DNA of 64,000 bases from Hallerella succinigenes (lineage in GTDB: Bacteria > Fibrobacterota > Fibrobacteria > Fibrobacterales > Fibrobacteraceae): positions 2,728,001 through 2,792,000 of the forward strand of contig NZ_PGEX01000001.1 in NCBI RefSeq assembly GCF_002797675.1, written 5' to 3'. Position numbers and translations under genes: made by a program. Below the pieces are notes generated by a model. That model was not told the DNA's origin and made no database searches. It saw only the letters and a program-made list of their open reading frames with translations. Below, piece by piece: positions 24,276 to 57,320 of this stretch (positions are counted from its first letter, which is position 1; each line of letters starts with the position of its first letter).

Positions 24276-25769
24276 TTAGTTGATTCGCCCGATCAAGTTG
24301 CCACTGAACTGATAGTCACGGGAAGAACCGTAGCTATGAGCACCGAAGGAAAGGGTGAAGCGCTTGGTGAGCGGCTTTTCGATGTAGAATGCACCGAGAA
24401 CATCCTTCACATGCTTCTTGTCCGTATCCGCGTATTTGGTTTCTGCGCGGTCGTGAATGTATTCTGCTTCGAGAATGATGCGGTAGTCACCCGGAGTGAA
24501 GAGAAGACCGCCGGTAATCGGAGCGACCATGTCGATTGTGCGGGTGCGTTTCTTGCCGAAACGGTCGGTATAGGTTTCTTCTGCATCGAGACCCATCAAA
24601 GCGCCTTCGAGGAAGAAGTAAGCGATGTTATCGACAATCGGGGTCTTGCCCTGGAGAGCGATTGTGTGACGGACGTCAACGTCATTGTCATGGATGAGGT
24701 CGAAGACATTTGTACGGTAGCCGAGGTCGAGGTTCAGAAATTCAATGCCGCTGAGGTCATGGAAGTTGAACATCAAACGAAGGTCACCCGTGTTGAGGTT
24801 CGGAGTCGTGCTGATGAAAGCGACGCTCATCGTCATTGTTTCCGTTGGGGTGAGCGTGAACTGCAAAGCGTTTTCGCTCGAAGCTCCAGACTTGAAGCCG
24901 TTGTAGTAGCCATCGACGTAGTTACCGAAGTAGTCACCGTTCTTCTGCGTGAATTCCCAACGACCGAGCTTGATAGAGGCGTATTTGGTGTGCTGTTCAG
25001 CCCATGCTTCGTGGATTTCAAAGAGATCGCGGTATTCATAAGAATCCGAAGTATCGCCGTCAGCGGTGTGATGGGCGTGATACTGGTTGTCTATCAAGTC
25101 GCCCGGATACATATAGAGCAAGATACGACCGTTGAAGTCATCGGAATGGGTTTCCATGCCGAGGTTGGCGCGGCCCCACCATTCTTCGAAGTTATCGCCG
25201 TTGTCGTCGTCTTCGCTTGTCCAGAGAACCTTGCTTGCCTGGATTTCAAAGCTTGCGTCGATATCAAAGACAAATTCGCCAGCCTTGAAAAGCGGTTTTT
25301 TCTGGGCTTTTTTCGGAGCTGAAATAGACTTGGGAGAAGCCATGGACATGTCCAGAGCAGGAGCCGCATTGGCTGTATCAGCGGGTGCAGCAACCGGAGC
25401 TTCTGCGACCTTGGCTGTATCGGCGGGTACAGCGGCCGGGGCTTCTGCGACCTTGGCTGTATCGGCGGGTGCAGCGGCCGGGGCTTCTGCGACCTTGGCT
25501 GTATCGGCGGGTGCAGCGGCCGGGGCTTCTGCGGCCTTGGCTGTATCGGCGGGTGCAGCGGCCGGGGCTTCTGCGACCTTGGCTGTATCGGTGGGTGCAG
25601 CGGCCGGGGCTTCTGCGACCTTGGCTGTATCGGCGGGTGCAGCGGCCGGAGCTTCTGCGACCTTGGCTGTATCGGTGGGTGCAGCGGCCTGGGCTACCTT
25701 TGCAGAATCGGCAGGCTGTGCGAACAGGGCAGTTGCCATTGCAATTGATGCAAATAGAACTTTGTTCAT
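24276..25769 (-). CDS. Outer-membrane beta-barrel (porin-like) protein with Ala/Pro-rich tandem repeat
   Basis: 497 residues. Signal peptide MNKVLFASIAMATALFA, then eight copies of a 14-residue unit (AAAPADTAKVAEAP and variants), a basic linker (APKKAQKKPLFK), and a long C-terminal region of alternating amphipathic strands with many aromatic and acidic residues. The strand-like ends (FTLSFGAHSYGSS) fit a porin barrel. The start at 25769 is chosen because GGAG lies 6 nt upstream; an ATG at 25787 would sit before this ribosome site. The repeat may span the periplasm or contact peptidoglycan. Transported substrate unknown. Confidence 0.78.
   Translation of the reverse strand: MNKVLFASIAMATALFAQPADSAKVAQAAAPTDTAKVAEAPAAAPADTAKVAEAPAAAPTDTAKVAEAPAAAPADTAKAAEAPAAAPADTAKVAEAPAAAPADTAKVAEAPAAVPADTAKVAEAPVAAPADTANAAPALDMSMASPKSISAPKKAQKKPLFKAGEFVFDIDASFEIQASKVLWTSEDDDNGDNFEEWWGRANLGMETHSDDFNGRILLYMYPGDLIDNQYHAHHTADGDTSDSYEYRDLFEIHEAWAEQHTKYASIKLGRWEFTQKNGDYFGNYVDGYYNGFKSGASSENALQFTLTPTETMTMSVAFISTTPNLNTGDLRLMFNFHDLSGIEFLNLDLGYRTNVFDLIHDNDVDVRHTIALQGKTPIVDNIAYFFLEGALMGLDAEETYTDRFGKKRTRTIDMVAPITGGLLFTPGDYRIILEAEYIHDRAETKYADTDKKHVKDVLGAFYIEKPLTKRFTLSFGAHSYGSSRDYQFSGNLIGRIN
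25353..25688 (-). repeat. 42-bp tandem repeat within the porin gene (8 units)
   Basis: Codes for eight successive 14-residue units of the type AAAPADTAKVAEAP, differing at only a few positions (Thr for Ala, Val for Ala). Nucleotide units are near-identical, so copy-number change by slippage or recombination is expected. Confidence 0.9.
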
Positions 25770-45652: not shown

Positions 45653-46357
45653 ATGAAAGCATTGATCGGTGTAATGCCCCTGTGGGATGACGAAAAGGAA
45701 AGCATCTGGATGTTCCCCGGCTACTTGGAAGGGATTCAAAAAGCGGGCGGAATTCCGATTGTTTTACCGCTCTCTTCCGATGAAGGCGACTTGGAGCATT
45801 TGGTAAAAATGTGTGATGAATTTCTGTTCACCGGTGGTCATGATGTTTCTCCGGAGCTATACCAGGAAAAGCTTTTGAACAAATCCGTCGTCTGCTGCAG
45901 TCGAAGGGATGCGATGGAAAAGATCGTGCTGCAAAAGGTTTTGGAACTCGACAAGCCTTTGCTCGGCATTTGTCGCGGTATCCAGTTTTTGAATGCCGCT
46001 CTCGGGGGAACCTTGTATCAGGACCTGCCGACGGAAAGACCTTCGGTGATGGAACATCACCAACAGGCTCCTTATGACGTTCCTGTGCACCGGGTAAAAA
46101 TTCTCAAGGATTCGCCTTTGTTCCAATGCTTGGGCGTGGAAGAGCTCTTGGTGAACAGTTATCATCATCAAGCGGTCAGAAGGATGTCGCCTATGTTAAA
46201 ACCAATGGCCGTTTCGGAAGACGGCTTGGTGGAAGCTCTTTATATGCCTGGACATCGCTTTGTTTGGGCGGTACAGTGGCATCCGGAATTTTCGTACAAG
46301 ACGGATGTGAGCAGTATTCAAATATTGCAAGCATTTGTAAGGATGAGTGGCAAATAA
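45653..46357 (+). CDS. Gamma-glutamyl-gamma-aminobutyrate hydrolase-family protein (peptidase C26)
   Basis: Class I glutamine amidotransferase fold, 234 residues, related to PuuD. Nucleophile elbow PLLGICRGIQFLNAALGGTLYQDL carries the Cys, and AVQWHPEFSY carries the catalytic His with its Glu. LFTGGHDVSPELYQE is the family substrate region. GAGGTG lies 7 nt before the ATG. PuuD acts in putrescine breakdown, which would fit the potABCD system elsewhere in the window, but other gamma-glutamyl substrates are equally possible. Confidence 0.88.
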   Translation: MKALIGVMPLWDDEKESIWMFPGYLEGIQKAGGIPIVLPLSSDEGDLEHLVKMCDEFLFTGGHDVSPELYQEKLLNKSVVCCSRRDAMEKIVLQKVLELDKPLLGICRGIQFLNAALGGTLYQDLPTERPSVMEHHQQAPYDVPVHRVKILKDSPLFQCLGVEELLVNSYHHQAVRRMSPMLKPMAVSEDGLVEALYMPGHRFVWAVQWHPEFSYKTDVSSIQILQAFVRMSGK

Positions 46358-46403
46358 AAAAGCACAGGGTTCGAAAAAGTTTTTTCCATCCTGCACGCAA
46401 AAT

Positions 46404-46418
46404 TGTGACTTAGTCACA
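46404..46418. promoter_or_regulatory. Crp/Fnr-type operator candidate upstream of trxA copy 1
   Basis: TGTGACTTAGTCACA is a 7+1+7 palindrome of the TGTGA...TCACA class, but with 5 rather than 6 bases between half-sites. A Crp/Fnr-family regulator gene (broken) lies just beyond copy 2. Confidence 0.5.
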
Positions 46419-46429
46419 GCTGCCTAGAA

Positions 46430-46475
46430 CCTCTTTATGTAATATATAGGTGTAAGAACAATCCACATAAAGAGG
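46430..46475 (+). promoter_or_regulatory. Inverted repeat enclosing the trxA ribosome site (copy 1)
   Basis: CCTCTTTATGT (46430-46440) and ACATAAAGAGG (46465-46475) pair perfectly over 11 bp. The right arm is the AAAGAGG Shine-Dalgarno, 6 nt before the ATG. If the left arm is transcribed, the hairpin would mask translation. AT-rich AATATATAGG between the arms may instead be a -10 region, making this a DNA operator. Confidence 0.5.
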
Positions 46476-46481
46476 TAAAAC

Positions 46482-46790
46482 ATGTCTGAACTGACGATCA
46501 CAAAAGAAAACTTTGAAGCAGAAGTTATGCAGTCCAAGGTCCCGGTGCTCATCGATTTTTGGGCAAGCTGGTGCGGACCTTGCCGCATGCTCTCCCCGAT
46601 TATTTCCGAAATTGCGGAAGAGAGCGAGGGAAAGTTCAAGGTTGGCAAGGTGAACGTGGACGAACAGGAAGAACTCGCCGCCCAGTTCCGCGTATCGAGC
46701 ATTCCGACTCTTGTCGTGGTCAAGGACGGCAAGGTCACGAACAGCTCTGTCGGCGTGCGGCCTAAGGCTCAGATTCTCGCCATGATCTAA
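46482..46790 (+). CDS. trxA: Thioredoxin, copy 1
   Basis: Cytoplasmic dithiol reductant, 102 residues. Classic active site FWASWCGPCRML, the buried Asp in PVLIDFWA, cis-Pro loop SSIPTLVVV and FKVGKVNVDEQEELAAQF. The protein is identical to copy 2 at 53542 (0 amino-acid changes, 6 silent ones), so either selection or recent exchange keeps them the same. AAAGAGG lies 6 nt before the ATG. Confidence 0.96.
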   Translation: MSELTITKENFEAEVMQSKVPVLIDFWASWCGPCRMLSPIISEIAEESEGKFKVGKVNVDEQEELAAQFRVSSIPTLVVVKDGKVTNSSVGVRPKAQILAMI

Positions 46791-46793
46791 TTC

Positions 46794-46873
46794 TGTAAGC
46801 TACCCATTTTTAGGACTGGTTTAAAGTGAACAGTCCTAATTATGGGGAAGCTTACAAAAATGGGTAGCTGACA
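46794..46873. mobile_element. Cluster of three IS-end-like inverted repeats (element relic or MITE-like hairpin)
   Basis: TGTAAGCTACCCATTTTT begins at 46794. Its near-complement CAGTCCTAATTATGGGG-AAGCTTACA ends at 46856, with TAGGACTG / CAGTCCTA inside. A third end, AAAAATGGGTAGCTGACA, occupies 46856-46873. TG...CA tips and the CCC/GGG plus A/T-run layout resemble IS3-family ends, but no transposase remains. It starts exactly where the trxA repeat stops. It may also act as the trxA terminator. Confidence 0.45.
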
Positions 46874-46881
46874 TATATCTT

Positions 46882-46920
46882 TGTATTGACATACATCAAT
46901 ACATTTCCTAAAATAGACGC
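46882..46920 (+). promoter_or_regulatory. Sigma-70-type promoter with overlapping operator; probably leaderless start
   Basis: TTGACA (46886-46891), 17-bp spacer, TAAAAT (46909-46914). Only six bases (AGACGC) separate the -10 box from the ATG, so transcription should start at or within a base of the start codon. TGTATTGA-N6-TCAATACA (46882-46903) is a perfect inverted repeat over the -35 box, a likely site for autorepression by the encoded ribbon-helix-helix protein. Confidence 0.75.
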
Positions 46921-47253
46921 ATGGCTCCAAAACGTAAATCGCAAAAACGTAAGCATCCCAAAGGCTTCAAGCTGGTAAAGGATATTTATTCCCCAAGCGA
47001 AATCGAAGCCCTGGAAAATGATACGCATGTTAGATTTCCCATGACAATCTCGGGCGGTCATGAATCCGAAACTTTGGAAGAATCGCTTTCGCGAATCAAG
47101 CGTGCCATTGCGGAATCCAAGGAAGAAAAAAAGATGTACTCAATCCGTCTCAAAGTCAAGACGGTCGATGCGATCAAGCGCAAGGCTTCTGCCGCCGGCA
47201 TTCCGTACCAAACCTACATCAACGCCCTCCTCGACAACGCCGCGCTTGCGTAG
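46921..47253 (+). CDS. CopG/ribbon-helix-helix (antitoxin-like) protein
   Basis: 110 residues. The basic N-terminus MAPKRKSQKRKHPKGFK is followed by an acidic middle and a C-terminal RHH-type region: MYSIRLKVKTVDAIKRKASAAGIPYQTYINALLDNAA, the usual strand-helix-helix pattern of CopG-like antitoxins. No toxin gene is adjacent on either side, so it is an orphan or an independent regulator. It has no Shine-Dalgarno; see the promoter at 46882, which implies a leaderless mRNA. Confidence 0.78.
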   Translation: MAPKRKSQKRKHPKGFKLVKDIYSPSEIEALENDTHVRFPMTISGGHESETLEESLSRIKRAIAESKEEKKMYSIRLKVKTVDAIKRKASAAGIPYQTYINALLDNAALA

Positions 47254-47254
47254 A

Positions 47255-47310
47255 GATTGCTTCGTCACTTCGTTCCTCGCAATGACATTCTGAACGTTCC
47301 TCGCAATGTC
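47255..47310. repeat. Dispersed extragenic repeat (two tandem partial copies)
   Basis: GATTGCTTCGTCACTTCG...CTCGCAATGAC (47255-47286) is the inverse of the widespread GTCATTGCGAGGAACGAAG... intergenic repeat. A second partial copy GAACGTTCCTCGCAATGTC follows at 47292-47310. Related sequence lies at 54478-54519, beyond the other side of the polysaccharide island. Confidence 0.75.
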
Positions 47311-47361
47311 AGTTCCTAAAATGCTATCTTTACTAGCATAGCGTAAAAAAAGGTCTTTATT

Positions 47362-48081
47362 ATGAACATAGCTCTTTTGACAGCGGGTGGAACCGGCAAC
47401 CGAATGGGACAGGACATCCCGAAACAGTTCATGTGCATTGATAATCAGCCTGTGATCATCTATACGATGCAGGCATTTCAATACAGTAAAGATATTGATG
47501 CTATCGCGGTGGTCTGCATCCCTGGATGGGAACCGATCATGCAGGCGTACGCGAACCAGTTCAACATCACCAAGTTGAAGTGGATTTTTCCGGGCGGCGA
47601 TTCGAATCAAGAGTCTATCTTCAACGGCATCAGCGGGTTGAAGTCCAACGGGTGTGACGATGACGATATTATCCTTGTGCATGATGGCGTGCGGCCTCTT
47701 GTGTCGAACGAGATCATTGCGAATAATATTGCCACCTGCAAAGAATTTGGGTATGCTGTTACCGGGCTTACTTGCAAGGAAGCGATCATGGAATTGGTGG
47801 ATGGGAACGTCCATGAAATCGAGATCCCTCGGGAACGCTTGGTTCGCACGCAAACGCCGCATACCTACCGGCTGAAATCCTTGTTGAAGGCGCACGAAGA
47901 CGCTAAAAAACAGGGGATTGTCAATACGGTCGCCTCCTGTACGCTGATTGCCGCTACGGGCGTCAAGGATCAGCACCTGGTCGAAGGTTCTGAAAAGAAC
48001 GGGTTAAAGCTGACTCGTCCGCAGGATGTCGAAATTTTCAAGGCGATGATCCATAGCGAACCTGAACCTTGGATGAAGTAG
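47362..48081 (+). CDS. IspD/TarI-family cytidylyltransferase (probably polyol-phosphate)
   Basis: Activates a phosphorylated alcohol with CTP. 239 residues: ALLTAGGTGNRMGQDIPKQFM (nucleotide-binding loop with the Arg and Lys), IILVHDGVRPLVSNEII, RERLVRTQTPHTYRLKSLL and LKLTRPQDVEIF near the end. The overall pattern and the neighbouring CDP-alcohol phosphotransferase favour a TarI-like ribitol- or related polyol-5-phosphate enzyme over IspD of isoprenoid synthesis. First gene of the surface-polysaccharide cluster; the next gene starts 1 bp after its stop. Confidence 0.85.
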   Translation: MNIALLTAGGTGNRMGQDIPKQFMCIDNQPVIIYTMQAFQYSKDIDAIAVVCIPGWEPIMQAYANQFNITKLKWIFPGGDSNQESIFNGISGLKSNGCDDDDIILVHDGVRPLVSNEIIANNIATCKEFGYAVTGLTCKEAIMELVDGNVHEIEIPRERLVRTQTPHTYRLKSLLKAHEDAKKQGIVNTVASCTLIAATGVKDQHLVEGSEKNGLKLTRPQDVEIFKAMIHSEPEPWMK

Positions 48082-53461: not shown

Positions 53462-53853
53462 ATTGTGACCTAGTCACAGCTGCCTAGAACCTCTTTATGT
53501 AATATATAGGAGTAAGAACAATCCACATAAAGAGGTAAAACATGTCTGAACTGACGATCACAAAAGAAAACTTTGAAGCAGAAGTTATGCAGTCCAAGGT
53601 CCCTGTGCTCATCGATTTTTGGGCAAGCTGGTGCGGGCCTTGCCGCATGCTCTCCCCGATCATTTCCGAAATTGCGGAAGAGAGCGAGGGAAAGTTCAAG
53701 GTTGGCAAGGTGAACGTGGACGAGCAGGAAGAACTCGCCGCCCAGTTCCGCGTATCGAGCATTCCGACTCTGGTCGTGGTCAAGGACGGCAAGGTCACGA
53801 ACAGCTCTGTCGGCGTGCGGCCTAAGGCTCAGATTCTTGCCATGATCTAATTC
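53462..53853 (+). repeat. 392-bp direct repeat, copy 2 (thioredoxin gene with its upstream region)
   Basis: Second copy of 46402-46793, offset 7,060 bp, same orientation, 8 differences. It begins right after the truncated glycosyltransferase and ends where the Crp-like gene's leader begins. Upstream control motifs are kept: TGTGACCTAGTCACA at 53464-53478 and the 11-bp arms at 53490-53500 and 53525-53535. Confidence 0.95.
53542..53850 (+). CDS. trxA: Thioredoxin, copy 2
   Basis: Same 102-residue protein as copy 1, with WCGPC active site and SSIPTL cis-Pro loop. The six base differences to copy 1 are all at third codon positions and silent (Pro, Gly, Ile, Glu and two Leu codons). The sequence after the stop runs directly into the leader of the Crp/Fnr-type gene, whereas copy 1 is followed by foreign-looking debris. 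Copy 2 therefore probably keeps the ancestral right-hand neighbour. Confidence 0.96.
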   Translation: MSELTITKENFEAEVMQSKVPVLIDFWASWCGPCRMLSPIISEIAEESEGKFKVGKVNVDEQEELAAQFRVSSIPTLVVVKDGKVTNSSVGVRPKAQILAMI

Positions 53854-53913
53854 GAATTCATTCTCCAAAGCAACGCACCTTTTTTGTATATATTGCAAAG
53901 AAGGTGTTTGTTT

Positions 53914-54467
53914 ATGAATACAGCTCCAGTCCGTTTAATTGTGGATAGGCTCCCGTTTTGGAGCAAACTTTCGGCTAGTGAAAAGACGGTGGTTTCGGAA
54001 CGTTCCGTAATCCAGTATTTTGCGTTTCCACGGCGTCTTGCGTGATTCACCAGCTGACCTTTGAAACGGAAGTCTCGGCGGTCAAGGATACGACGGTGCT
54101 CGTCGTTCCCGCTTCCATCTGTGGACAGCTGATGGAGTCGAACATCCACGTGAAGGCTCTAGTCTTTGAAAAAGAAACGGAACGTTTTTCGCAAACGCTC
54201 TGGGCTTTGCAGATGATGCTTTTCAAAAAGTTCGATCAGCGCCTGGCTTCTTACTTTGTGGCCGCCTATGAAAAGAGCGGAAAGCTTGAAATTCAAAAGA
54301 CGCAAGAAGAAATCGCTCGCGATGTAAATTCTGCCCGAGAGGTTGTCGCTCGCATGCTCCGAGAATTTTCCGCGAAGGGCCTTGTAAACGTAAAACGAGG
54401 TGCGATTCATTTCCTCGATATAGAAGGCCTAAAAAAGATAGGATCGTCTCCTCGCTCCTCGTTATGA
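53914..54467 (+). pseudogene. Crp/Fnr-family transcriptional regulator, internally deleted and frameshifted
   Basis: The N-terminal piece (MNTAPVRLIVDRLPFWSKLSASEKTVV...VIQYF) stops at about 54045. The second piece, in another frame from about 54040, reads SCVIHQLTFETEVSAVKDTTVLVVP, then the dimer helix and a Crp-type helix-turn-helix TQEEIARDVNSAREVVARMLREFSAKGLV. Roughly 40-50 residues of the cyclic-nucleotide-binding-like barrel between them are missing. The lost protein may have bound the TGTGAC...GTCACA site upstream of trxA. Confidence 0.75.
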
Positions 54468-55688: not shown

Positions 55689-57320
55689 TTAGAAGCTGAA
55701 TACGGTTTCGAGGCCGAAGCGCAGAGCGGTGTCGTCTTCGTTGTCCTGCATTGCGATGTCAACCATACCGAACGCTGTGATTTCGAGGTTTTCGACCGGG
55801 CTGATGTAGAAGCGGCCACCGACATCGAGAGTCGCTTCATCTTCTTTGTCGTCGTCGAGGGTATGCGTGTGATATTCAACCGGGATACCGATCTTGATGA
55901 ATTCAGCAAATTTGAATGCCGGTTCGCCATAGAGGAAAAAATATTCCTGGAAGTCCTTTTCTGCTTCGATGTGGCCGTCTTCAGCTTCGTCGATGAAGGC
56001 ATAGAAGGCGGTGGTCTTGATATTGAACATGCCAATTTCGAAGGTCGGTTCGGCCAAGATCGTGTGAGCAGTGGAGGTCATGTCCACATTCTTCTTAACG
56101 TCGCCGTCGTCGGCGAGGTAGTCGGCATGGAAGCCGTAAACAGCGCGGAAGCCGAAGCCGCCGATGTTCAAGCCGGCGTCAACACCAGCGTGGAGTTCGT
56201 TGTGCTGAGTGGACTGGAAGCTCTTATAGTTGACATACGGACGGAGGTGCTGACCGGCGTAGTCGAATTCGTAAGCTGCGTGAACGCTGTAGTTTTTGCC
56301 TTCGCCGTTAGCGCAGAGAGGGTTTTCTTTCTCGCCGTCATCGGCGCAGATGGAGTAGGTGTCATTATCGCCTCGACCGAAGCCCAAACCGAGTTGGAGA
56401 CCAGCAAGGTCAACTTCGAGACCGCGAATGTCACGTTCGGTCATGCCAGCGGCGTCATCAGTCGGATCATCATAACCGTAGTAAGCCTGGAATGCACCTT
56501 CCGAGAAGGTGAGGTCTCCAAGCTTCACCGCGAAGAAGTTGGCTGGCTTGTACTGGATGAATGCGCCATTGTAGATGGAAGCCGGAGAGGTGGTTTCACC
56601 GTCCGCTTCAAGACCCACAAATGCAGACCACTTTTCGTTGAACTGAACGTCGACGTTCAGATCGAAGGTAGAAGCATAGGAATGTTCGAGGTCGTCGTCA
56701 TTGATGACGTCGCCCGTGTAAATATCAAATTCAGCCATGCCGGAGAACTTCACTTCCATCTTTGCTTTGGAAGTGCCTTCGTTCATGCTAGCCTTGAGAA
56801 TGTCGAGAGCGCTGCCGGCAGCGGCAGAAACTTCGCCCTTTTCTTCAGACTTGTTATCGGCTTTCTTGGCTTCTTCGGCCTTCTTGGCTTCTTCAGTCTT
56901 CTTGGCTTCTTCGGCCTTCTTGGCTTCTTCGGCCTTCTTGGCTTCTTCGGCCTTCTTGGCTTCTTCGGCCTTCATGGCTTCTTCGGCCTTCTTGGCTTCT
57001 TCGGCCTTCTTGGCTTCTTCGGCCTTCTTGGCTTCTTCAGCCTTCATGGCTTCTTCGGCCTTCTTGGCTTCTTCGGCCTTCTTGGCTTCTTCGGCCTTCT
57101 TGGCTTCTTCGGCCTTCTTGGCTTCTTCGGCCTTCATGGCTTCTTCAGCCTTCTTGGCTTCTTCGGCGGCCTTCACGGAATCCGCAACCGGAGCGTCAGC
57201 TTCTGCCTTCGGGGCTTCTGCGGTCTGTTCTGTTGCAGGGGCAGCAACCGGAGCAGCTTGAGCAAAGGCGCCGGCGGCAACGAGGCCGAGGACCAATGCG
57301 GATGTATAAATTTTGTTCAT
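55689..57320 (-). CDS. Outer-membrane beta-barrel protein with charged helical repeat domain
   Basis: 543 residues. Signal peptide MNKIYTSALVLGLVAAGAFA, an Ala/Pro/Glu linker, seventeen units of the 6-residue motif AEEAKK (variants AEEAMK, TEEAKK), then a porin-like barrel from about residue 175 (KAKMEVKFSGMAEFDIYTGDV...ending LRFGLETVFSF with the terminal Phe usual for BAM substrates). The repeat should form a long charged single helix, like the TolA stalk, and may reach through the periplasm. ATG preceded by GGAG. Shares its overall plan with the porin at 24276. Confidence 0.8.
   Translation of the reverse strand: MNKIYTSALVLGLVAAGAFAQAAPVAAPATEQTAEAPKAEADAPVADSVKAAEEAKKAEEAMKAEEAKKAEEAKKAEEAKKAEEAKKAEEAMKAEEAKKAEEAKKAEEAKKAEEAMKAEEAKKAEEAKKAEEAKKAEEAKKTEEAKKAEEAKKADNKSEEKGEVSAAAGSALDILKASMNEGTSKAKMEVKFSGMAEFDIYTGDVINDDDLEHSYASTFDLNVDVQFNEKWSAFVGLEADGETTSPASIYNGAFIQYKPANFFAVKLGDLTFSEGAFQAYYGYDDPTDDAAGMTERDIRGLEVDLAGLQLGLGFGRGDNDTYSICADDGEKENPLCANGEGKNYSVHAAYEFDYAGQHLRPYVNYKSFQSTQHNELHAGVDAGLNIGGFGFRAVYGFHADYLADDGDVKKNVDMTSTAHTILAEPTFEIGMFNIKTTAFYAFIDEAEDGHIEAEKDFQEYFFLYGEPAFKFAEFIKIGIPVEYHTHTLDDDKEDEATLDVGGRFYISPVENLEITAFGMVDIAMQDNEDDTALRFGLETVFSF
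56859..57170 (-). repeat. 18-bp tandem repeat within the second porin gene (17 units)
   Basis: Each unit codes AEEAKK; Met replaces the first Lys in units 2, 7 and 11. Codons are almost the same in every unit (GCC GAA GAA GCC AAG AAG). The opposite strand is open across the whole gene because of this bias. Prone to slippage. Confidence 0.9.

Follow-up and report, generated by a model that had tools for sequence, protein, structure and literature searches.

How does an antitoxin-type gene come to stand without a toxin, behind a promoter whose -10 box ends six bases before the start codon? The question is raised by a locus of Hallerella succinigenes (host genome: one contig, 3.13 Mb), for which a window of 64,000 nucleotides was analysed. 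The following features were assigned, from the upstream neighbour to the end of the gene (SD, Shine-Dalgarno):

46402..46793, plus strand: copy of a thioredoxin region, direct repeat of 53462-53853, stopping where the IS remnant begins
46794..46873, no strand: remnant of an IS3-type element (80 bp), both ends joined, about 1 kb missing
46882..46903, no strand: 22-bp palindrome over the -35 box, presumed operator (from the sequence and its conservation in relatives)
46886..46891, plus strand: -35 box TTGACA (sequence, promoter scan, aligned relatives)
46909..46914, plus strand: -10 box TAAAAT, its first three bases an in-frame stop codon TAA (sequence, promoter scan)
46915..46920, plus strand: AGACGC, the six bases from the -10 box to the ATG, without SD-like sequence
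46921..47253, plus strand: orphan CopG/BrnA-type antitoxin gene, 110 aa (ORF, Pfam profile, homologues)
46921..47106, plus strand: codons 1-62, N-terminal region, which presumably binds a toxin, judging from type II antitoxins
47107..47250, plus strand: codons 63-110, ribbon-helix-helix region (Pfam residues 63-106, low-confidence model)

The initial annotation had described the protein as antitoxin-like, and the Pfam search agrees: residues 63-106 match CopG_antitoxin (PF12441) with 31.4 bits against a cut-off of 28. In profile searches the scores for BrnA antitoxins stay under the cut-offs (PF14384, 23.1 versus 26.1; NF047399, 16.5 versus 60). The structure model is poor (pLDDT 68), with helices at residues 79-92 and 96-109 and a poorly modelled N-terminal part. 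That no toxin gene is adjacent, as had also been stated, is correct for the window: the thioredoxin copy and the IS remnant lie upstream, an IspD-like gene follows 108 bp downstream, and no toxin was found among these neighbours, so that the side-by-side genes of a type II system, present at 21 of 35 aligned loci, are missing here. Since no scrap of a toxin is left in the window, we infer its loss there rather than see it. The host genome holds a single toxin match, 40% identical and paired with its own antitoxin, and no close toxin. A scan of 46300-47400 against Rfam gave no match at the gathering score; PADLOC and PHROGs returned weak matches to the antitoxin alone and none to the toxin described below, and the sequences of solved structures contained no relative of either protein.

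The search for relatives covered the family in 111 genomes, 73 of which gave a match at E up to 0.001. Apart from the window itself, sequence comparison establishes close homologues at 29 places, aligned over almost the full protein at 73-79% identity; among loci in named genomes, 19 of 29 belong to Fibrobacter or Fibrobacterales. The lost partner that relatives had been expected to reveal is found there: a complete BrnT/DUF4258-like toxin ORF, absent here, precedes the antitoxin at 18 of the 29 places and is lacking at 11. The gene order in these relatives is a promoter with the palindrome, the toxin (76-80 aa in the close set) and then the antitoxin, whose start is overlapped by the toxin end by some 20-35 bases. 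Against the DUF4258 profile the relatives' toxins score 22.4-24.6 bits, just under the cut-off of 25. A toxin model (pLDDT 85.9) has as nearest structures toxin-antitoxin proteins of RelE/ParE/BrnT type, with Z-scores of 9.2 (7vd7_A, rmsd 2.5, 80 aligned), 9.0 (6l7q) and 6.7 (BrnT, 3u97). A RelE/BrnT-type (BECR) fold of the partner toxin is thus likely and not proven, because Foldseek itself matched the model to nothing at E up to 0.001 (a CdiA toxin ranked first, E 0.04). Each of the 19 best-scoring toxin hits (E up to 3e-27) has the antitoxin next to it; in this set, antitoxins thus occur without toxin, and the reverse was not seen. In distant relatives (Rickettsiales, Legionella), a small ORF that appears BrnT-like by eye follows the antitoxin in five of seven loci.

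A promoter could be recognised at 35 loci, the window included. The full toxin spacing is seen at 21 of them; the 14 others, which are toxin-less, show seven different spacings from operator start to ATG, namely 66 (eight loci), 97, 165, 158, 46, 74 and, in the window, 39; a partial toxin remains in L042 and L049. In three toxin-less cases both flanks are shared with an intact locus: the flanks of L040 and L056, one toxin-less and one intact, are 97.6 and 97.8% identical, those of L049 and L051, likewise one of each, 95.8 and 89.4%, and L032 shares both flanks with L033 and L036, and also with L037, where the downstream match covers 28 bases only. Thirteen other genomes carry a toxin-less copy. 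Five of them (G025, G037, G083, G085 and G099, with completeness of 71% for G083 and 85% for G085) gave no hit to the toxin at E up to 0.001, two (G059, G095) possess an intact close operon elsewhere, and the remaining six retain toxin remnants or more distant toxins. At the sequence level, the family-wide data point to repeated loss of the toxin alone.

The antitoxin left behind in the window is well preserved. It keeps 50 of the 51 positions that are invariant in 28 relatives (a count that omits L050, L052, L053, L054 and L059-L062) and departs at residue 2 only, though it is the most divergent member; in a leave-one-out comparison the relatives themselves depart at 0 to 2 such positions. 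Among the eight toxin-less copies of spacing 66, dN/dS is 0-0.23 over 28 pairs. Towards nearly all relatives of the orphan the synonymous sites are saturated, and selection after the toxin loss is therefore indistinguishable from selection before it.

The promoter reads TTGACA-N17-TAAAAT-N6-ATG, with a spacer of 17 bp and the ATG at 46921, exactly as initially annotated, and matches the consensus at 11 of 12 positions. Scanning 2.2 kb gave four promoter-like sites versus 2.7 in shuffled sequence, so that it is the score of this site that is unusual; finding a site at all is not. The absence of a ribosome site claimed for this gene also stands, as no SD-like sequence occurs at -16..-4. A longer N-terminus starting from ATG, GTG or TTG is ruled out by the in-frame TAA at 46909-46911, and the homologues start at the corresponding place. 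A donation of the promoter by the IS was likewise rejected: the -35 box begins 13 bases beyond the IS end and the promoter looks like those of the relatives. Given that a leaderless mRNA is defined, in the cited passage, by a 5' untranslated region of <8 nt (PMC10783764), the six-base gap predicts that the orphan mRNA is probably leaderless.

The same geometry recurs at the toxin starts of the family. Sixty such starts were read, with a promoter assignable in 51 and not in nine. The distance from the -10 box to the toxin start is 0-6 bases in 33 of the 51 (15 at 4, 3 at 5, 11 at 6; for the three at 0-1 the start codon may be misassigned), 14 bases in 17 and 21 bases in one, and an SD-like sequence precedes 4 of the 33 starts at 0-6 versus all 18 at 14 or 21. 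A well-scoring promoter lies 3-6 bases before 30 of the 60 starts; with the upstream DNA shuffled 200 times, the mean was 0.065 and the highest count 2. Grouping the 60 toxins at 60% identity yields 18 clusters, nine mainly at <=6, two mainly at 14 or 21 and seven unassigned. At antitoxin starts, an SD-like sequence was found in 32 of the 35 loci and not in the window, L052 and L062; a second script, run on intact operons, found one before 55 of 57 antitoxin starts, with L052 counted as having one and three loci giving no antitoxin call. These counts point to a family of toxin-antitoxin operons with a predicted leaderless toxin start and an SD-led antitoxin. Because leaderless spacing is usual at the toxin starts of the family and an SD-like sequence at its antitoxin starts, the orphan appears to have lost its SD sequence and to occupy a toxin-like leaderless slot.

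A different pattern holds in the cluster nearest to the window gene, where 17 of 18 toxins have a 14-base leader that contains an SD-like sequence. Toxin-less copies of this clade retain the SD sequence ahead of the antitoxin, and no toxin-less copy besides that of the window shows its arrangement. As this nearest cluster sits at distance 14, simple descent of the window spacing from it is disfavoured. Within the genus of the window, all seven toxin starts that were read lie at exactly six bases. An earlier scan of the host genome with the pattern TANNAT gave six matches and little information, and the genus (six genomes) was then scanned for TTGACA-N17-TANNNT followed by ATG 3-33 bases on. 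Among the 77 distinct sites, distance 6 is the highest bin with 13, followed by distance 13 with nine. The toxin-antitoxin family of the window accounts for seven of the 13, the site in the window among them; the other six, judged by eye, precede two ATPase-like ORFs, one lipoprotein-like ORF and one of 54 aa, with two left without an ORF by the script. In the host genome, 359 ATG-start ORFs from 400 kb (L189-L208) plus the window, the window gene itself not counted, have -10-like hexamers at distance 6 in 14 cases (three being copies of one gene), at 7 in six, at 4-5 in none, at 8 in one and at 9 in eight, a second bump. From the peak at 6-7 and the genus scan, leaderless starts look general in this genome, and the spacing of the window gene fits in. 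As a prediction, the leaderless transcript of the initial annotation thus gains from both the family and the genome.

The repeat noted over the -35 box is indeed perfect: TGTATTGA-CATACA-TCAATACA, an 8-N6-8 palindrome at 46882-46903. Such palindromes are not rare alone, with seven in the whole window; position and conservation in relatives are what lift this one above chance. In the alignment of 35 promoters, that of the window among them, T19 of the right arm is present in 35, A20 in 33, C21 in 33 and A22 in 34. This set omits L058 (cut by a contig end), L059 and L060 (without TTGACA) and loci beyond L062, and L071 repeats L034. The relatives' promoters were located by the key TATTGA plus C or T, and the invariance of the left arm is therefore partly by construction; the right arm played no part in the search. 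It sits in the promoter spacer, where promoters of this type need no conserved sequence. Intact relatives' operons carry the same arms over the -35 box, L044 and L045 with exactly the arms of the window, which are also found in the toxin-less L050. The proposed self-operator is thereby strengthened as a prediction, and we infer that the palindrome would be bound by the ribbon-helix-helix dimer of the orphan.

The surroundings may bear on the origin of the locus. The direct repeat of 46402-46793 and 53462-53853 spans 392 bp at 98% identity, with identical thioredoxin protein, and the second copy lies in the gene order of the relative G004. The 80-bp IS derivative next to the first copy has one full-length match in the genome, itself, with others covering <=47 bases, and a MITE family was accordingly rejected; a full copy of the element, which we take to be of the IS3 type from its HTH_Tnp_1 and rve ORFs, is present at C1:58539-59640. 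The roughly 7 kb between the repeats carry polysaccharide genes (four checked: IspD-like, epimerase, pyruvyl transferase, polysaccharide flippase-type), so that the orphan may have come with a polysaccharide island. As separate observations, a CRP-like regulator after the second thioredoxin gene (53913-54467) looks truncated or frameshifted beside a 241-aa relative in L074, and self-comparison of the window shows tandem repeat arrays at 25363-25715 and 56857-57167.

The orphan is, with good confidence, the antitoxin of a toxin-deleted BrnT/DUF4258-like type II operon, self-repressing and leaderless as predicted. A deletion would have removed the toxin together with the SD leader of the antitoxin, and thereby moved the ATG of the antitoxin to the position that the ATG of the toxin holds in sister operons, six bases past the -10 box. 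The transcript would begin with the ATG or no more than about two bases from it, and this leaderless mRNA would be translated; the ribbon-helix-helix dimer would then bind the palindrome and repress its own promoter, keeping the level of the orphan low and steady. With its N-terminal region intact, the orphan may still bind a toxin, and for this reason a role as a guard against related toxins is proposed, after the anti-addiction model (PMC2654758). With less certainty, it may have been kept for the benefit of neutralising related toxins from mobile DNA or sibling operons. The adversary of such a guard is not in hand, as IMG/VR viral contigs and plasmid records were searched without any matching toxin or antitoxin.

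Several other readings were weighed. That the orphan now merely represses its own and perhaps a sibling operon, and neutralises no toxin, is somewhat unlikely. Two toxin-less relatives (L053, L054) have lost about 35 N-terminal residues in frame and keep the ribbon-helix-helix part and the promoter, which counts in favour of this reading; the orphan, by contrast, keeps every conserved N-terminal position save residue 2. In its own genome there are seven further operator-like sites at <=3 mismatches, one of which (C1:2576248-2576269, three mismatches) lies on the promoter of the intact toxin-antitoxin operon L025, but at three mismatches the eight sites compare with four for a reversed-pattern control and are not much above chance. 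We consider it unlikely that the gene is a decaying fossil of a dead operon without present function. Such decay would fit the lost toxin, the adjoining IS remnant, the absence of a close copy from the five other genomes of the genus that were searched, and the fact that selection since the toxin loss cannot be gauged; yet frame, promoter and palindrome are all intact, nearly all invariant positions are retained despite the greatest divergence, and toxin-less copies elsewhere are under strong purifying selection.

Two further readings concern the transcript and the partner. The main transcript might have its start further upstream and be translated from a leader without SD sequence; read-through from the thioredoxin gene, which has the same orientation, would be one way. 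Leadered starts of this kind may be common, as 220 of the 359 sampled ORFs have no SD-like sequence before the assumed ATG. Set against this are the near-consensus promoter conserved in relatives and the strong hairpin formed by the IS remnant between the two genes (-36.7 kcal/mol, z -6.6), even if the hairpin was not predicted to be a terminator, and we think an upstream start quite improbable. Even less probable, to a degree that makes it hardly credible, is a non-homologous toxin still nearby in an active pair: toxins can be replaced and opposite-strand ORFs overlap the orphan, but these ORFs are unsupported, and the neighbours with Pfam matches are a peptidase, a thioredoxin and an IspD-like enzyme.

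The toxin-deleted operon that we favour resembles known systems in part. In the BrnT/BrnA system (PF04365/PF14384), as far as the cited account goes, the toxin gene comes first and the C-terminal ribbon-helix-helix of the antitoxin controls the operon (PMC11980606). The relatives share the toxin-first order, and BrnT 3u97 (Z 6.7) is among the toxin model matches; unlike BrnT/BrnA, the toxins score nearer to DUF4258, the antitoxin stays under the BrnA cut-offs, and the window has no toxin and a leaderless spacing. The same account lists DUF4258 modules (PF14076) as antitoxin-first and of unknown activity (PMC11980606). The relatives' toxins, just under the cut-off of that profile, resemble these modules of the RelE/ParE superfamily, whereas the order here is toxin-first.

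Orphan antitoxins have been surveyed in Klebsiella, with anti-addiction as one role proposed in the sections cited (PMC7192599). The orphan has in common with them an antitoxin without toxin, and differs, as far as those sections describe them, in the repeated in-place loss, the retained operator and the switch from SD-led to leaderless. Of 953 bacterial genomes in a 2011 survey, 207 were reported to have leaderless genes; the name Fibrobacter does not occur in it (PMC3160421). A literature search, mostly of titles, turned up no report that toxins of this family are leaderless and their antitoxins SD-led, and none of an orphan antitoxin moved into the slot of the toxin. Orphan antitoxins and leaderless toxin-antitoxin mRNAs are thus already described, and the slot shift in the orphan is apparently new, as we have seen none.

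Loci that have repeatedly lost the toxin and retained the operator and the antitoxin provide a natural series for testing the anti-addiction idea. A further proposal, which we regard as speculative and rather doubtful, is that in the Fibrobacteraceae, with leaderless toxin and SD-led antitoxin, a condition favouring leaderless mRNAs tilts the operons towards the toxin, and that the orphan has moved sides. If true, leaderless-favouring conditions would shift the balance to the toxin, and the orphan would be a guard made in step with sibling or invading toxins. Leaderless toxin-antitoxin mRNAs have been measured in Mycobacterium tuberculosis (PMC3898074). Compared with what that source reports in the portion cited, they are predicted here, in another phylum, with a leaderless toxin and, the window apart, an SD-led antitoxin, and the same leaderless geometry in an unrelated phylum lets comparison test why such operons go leaderless.
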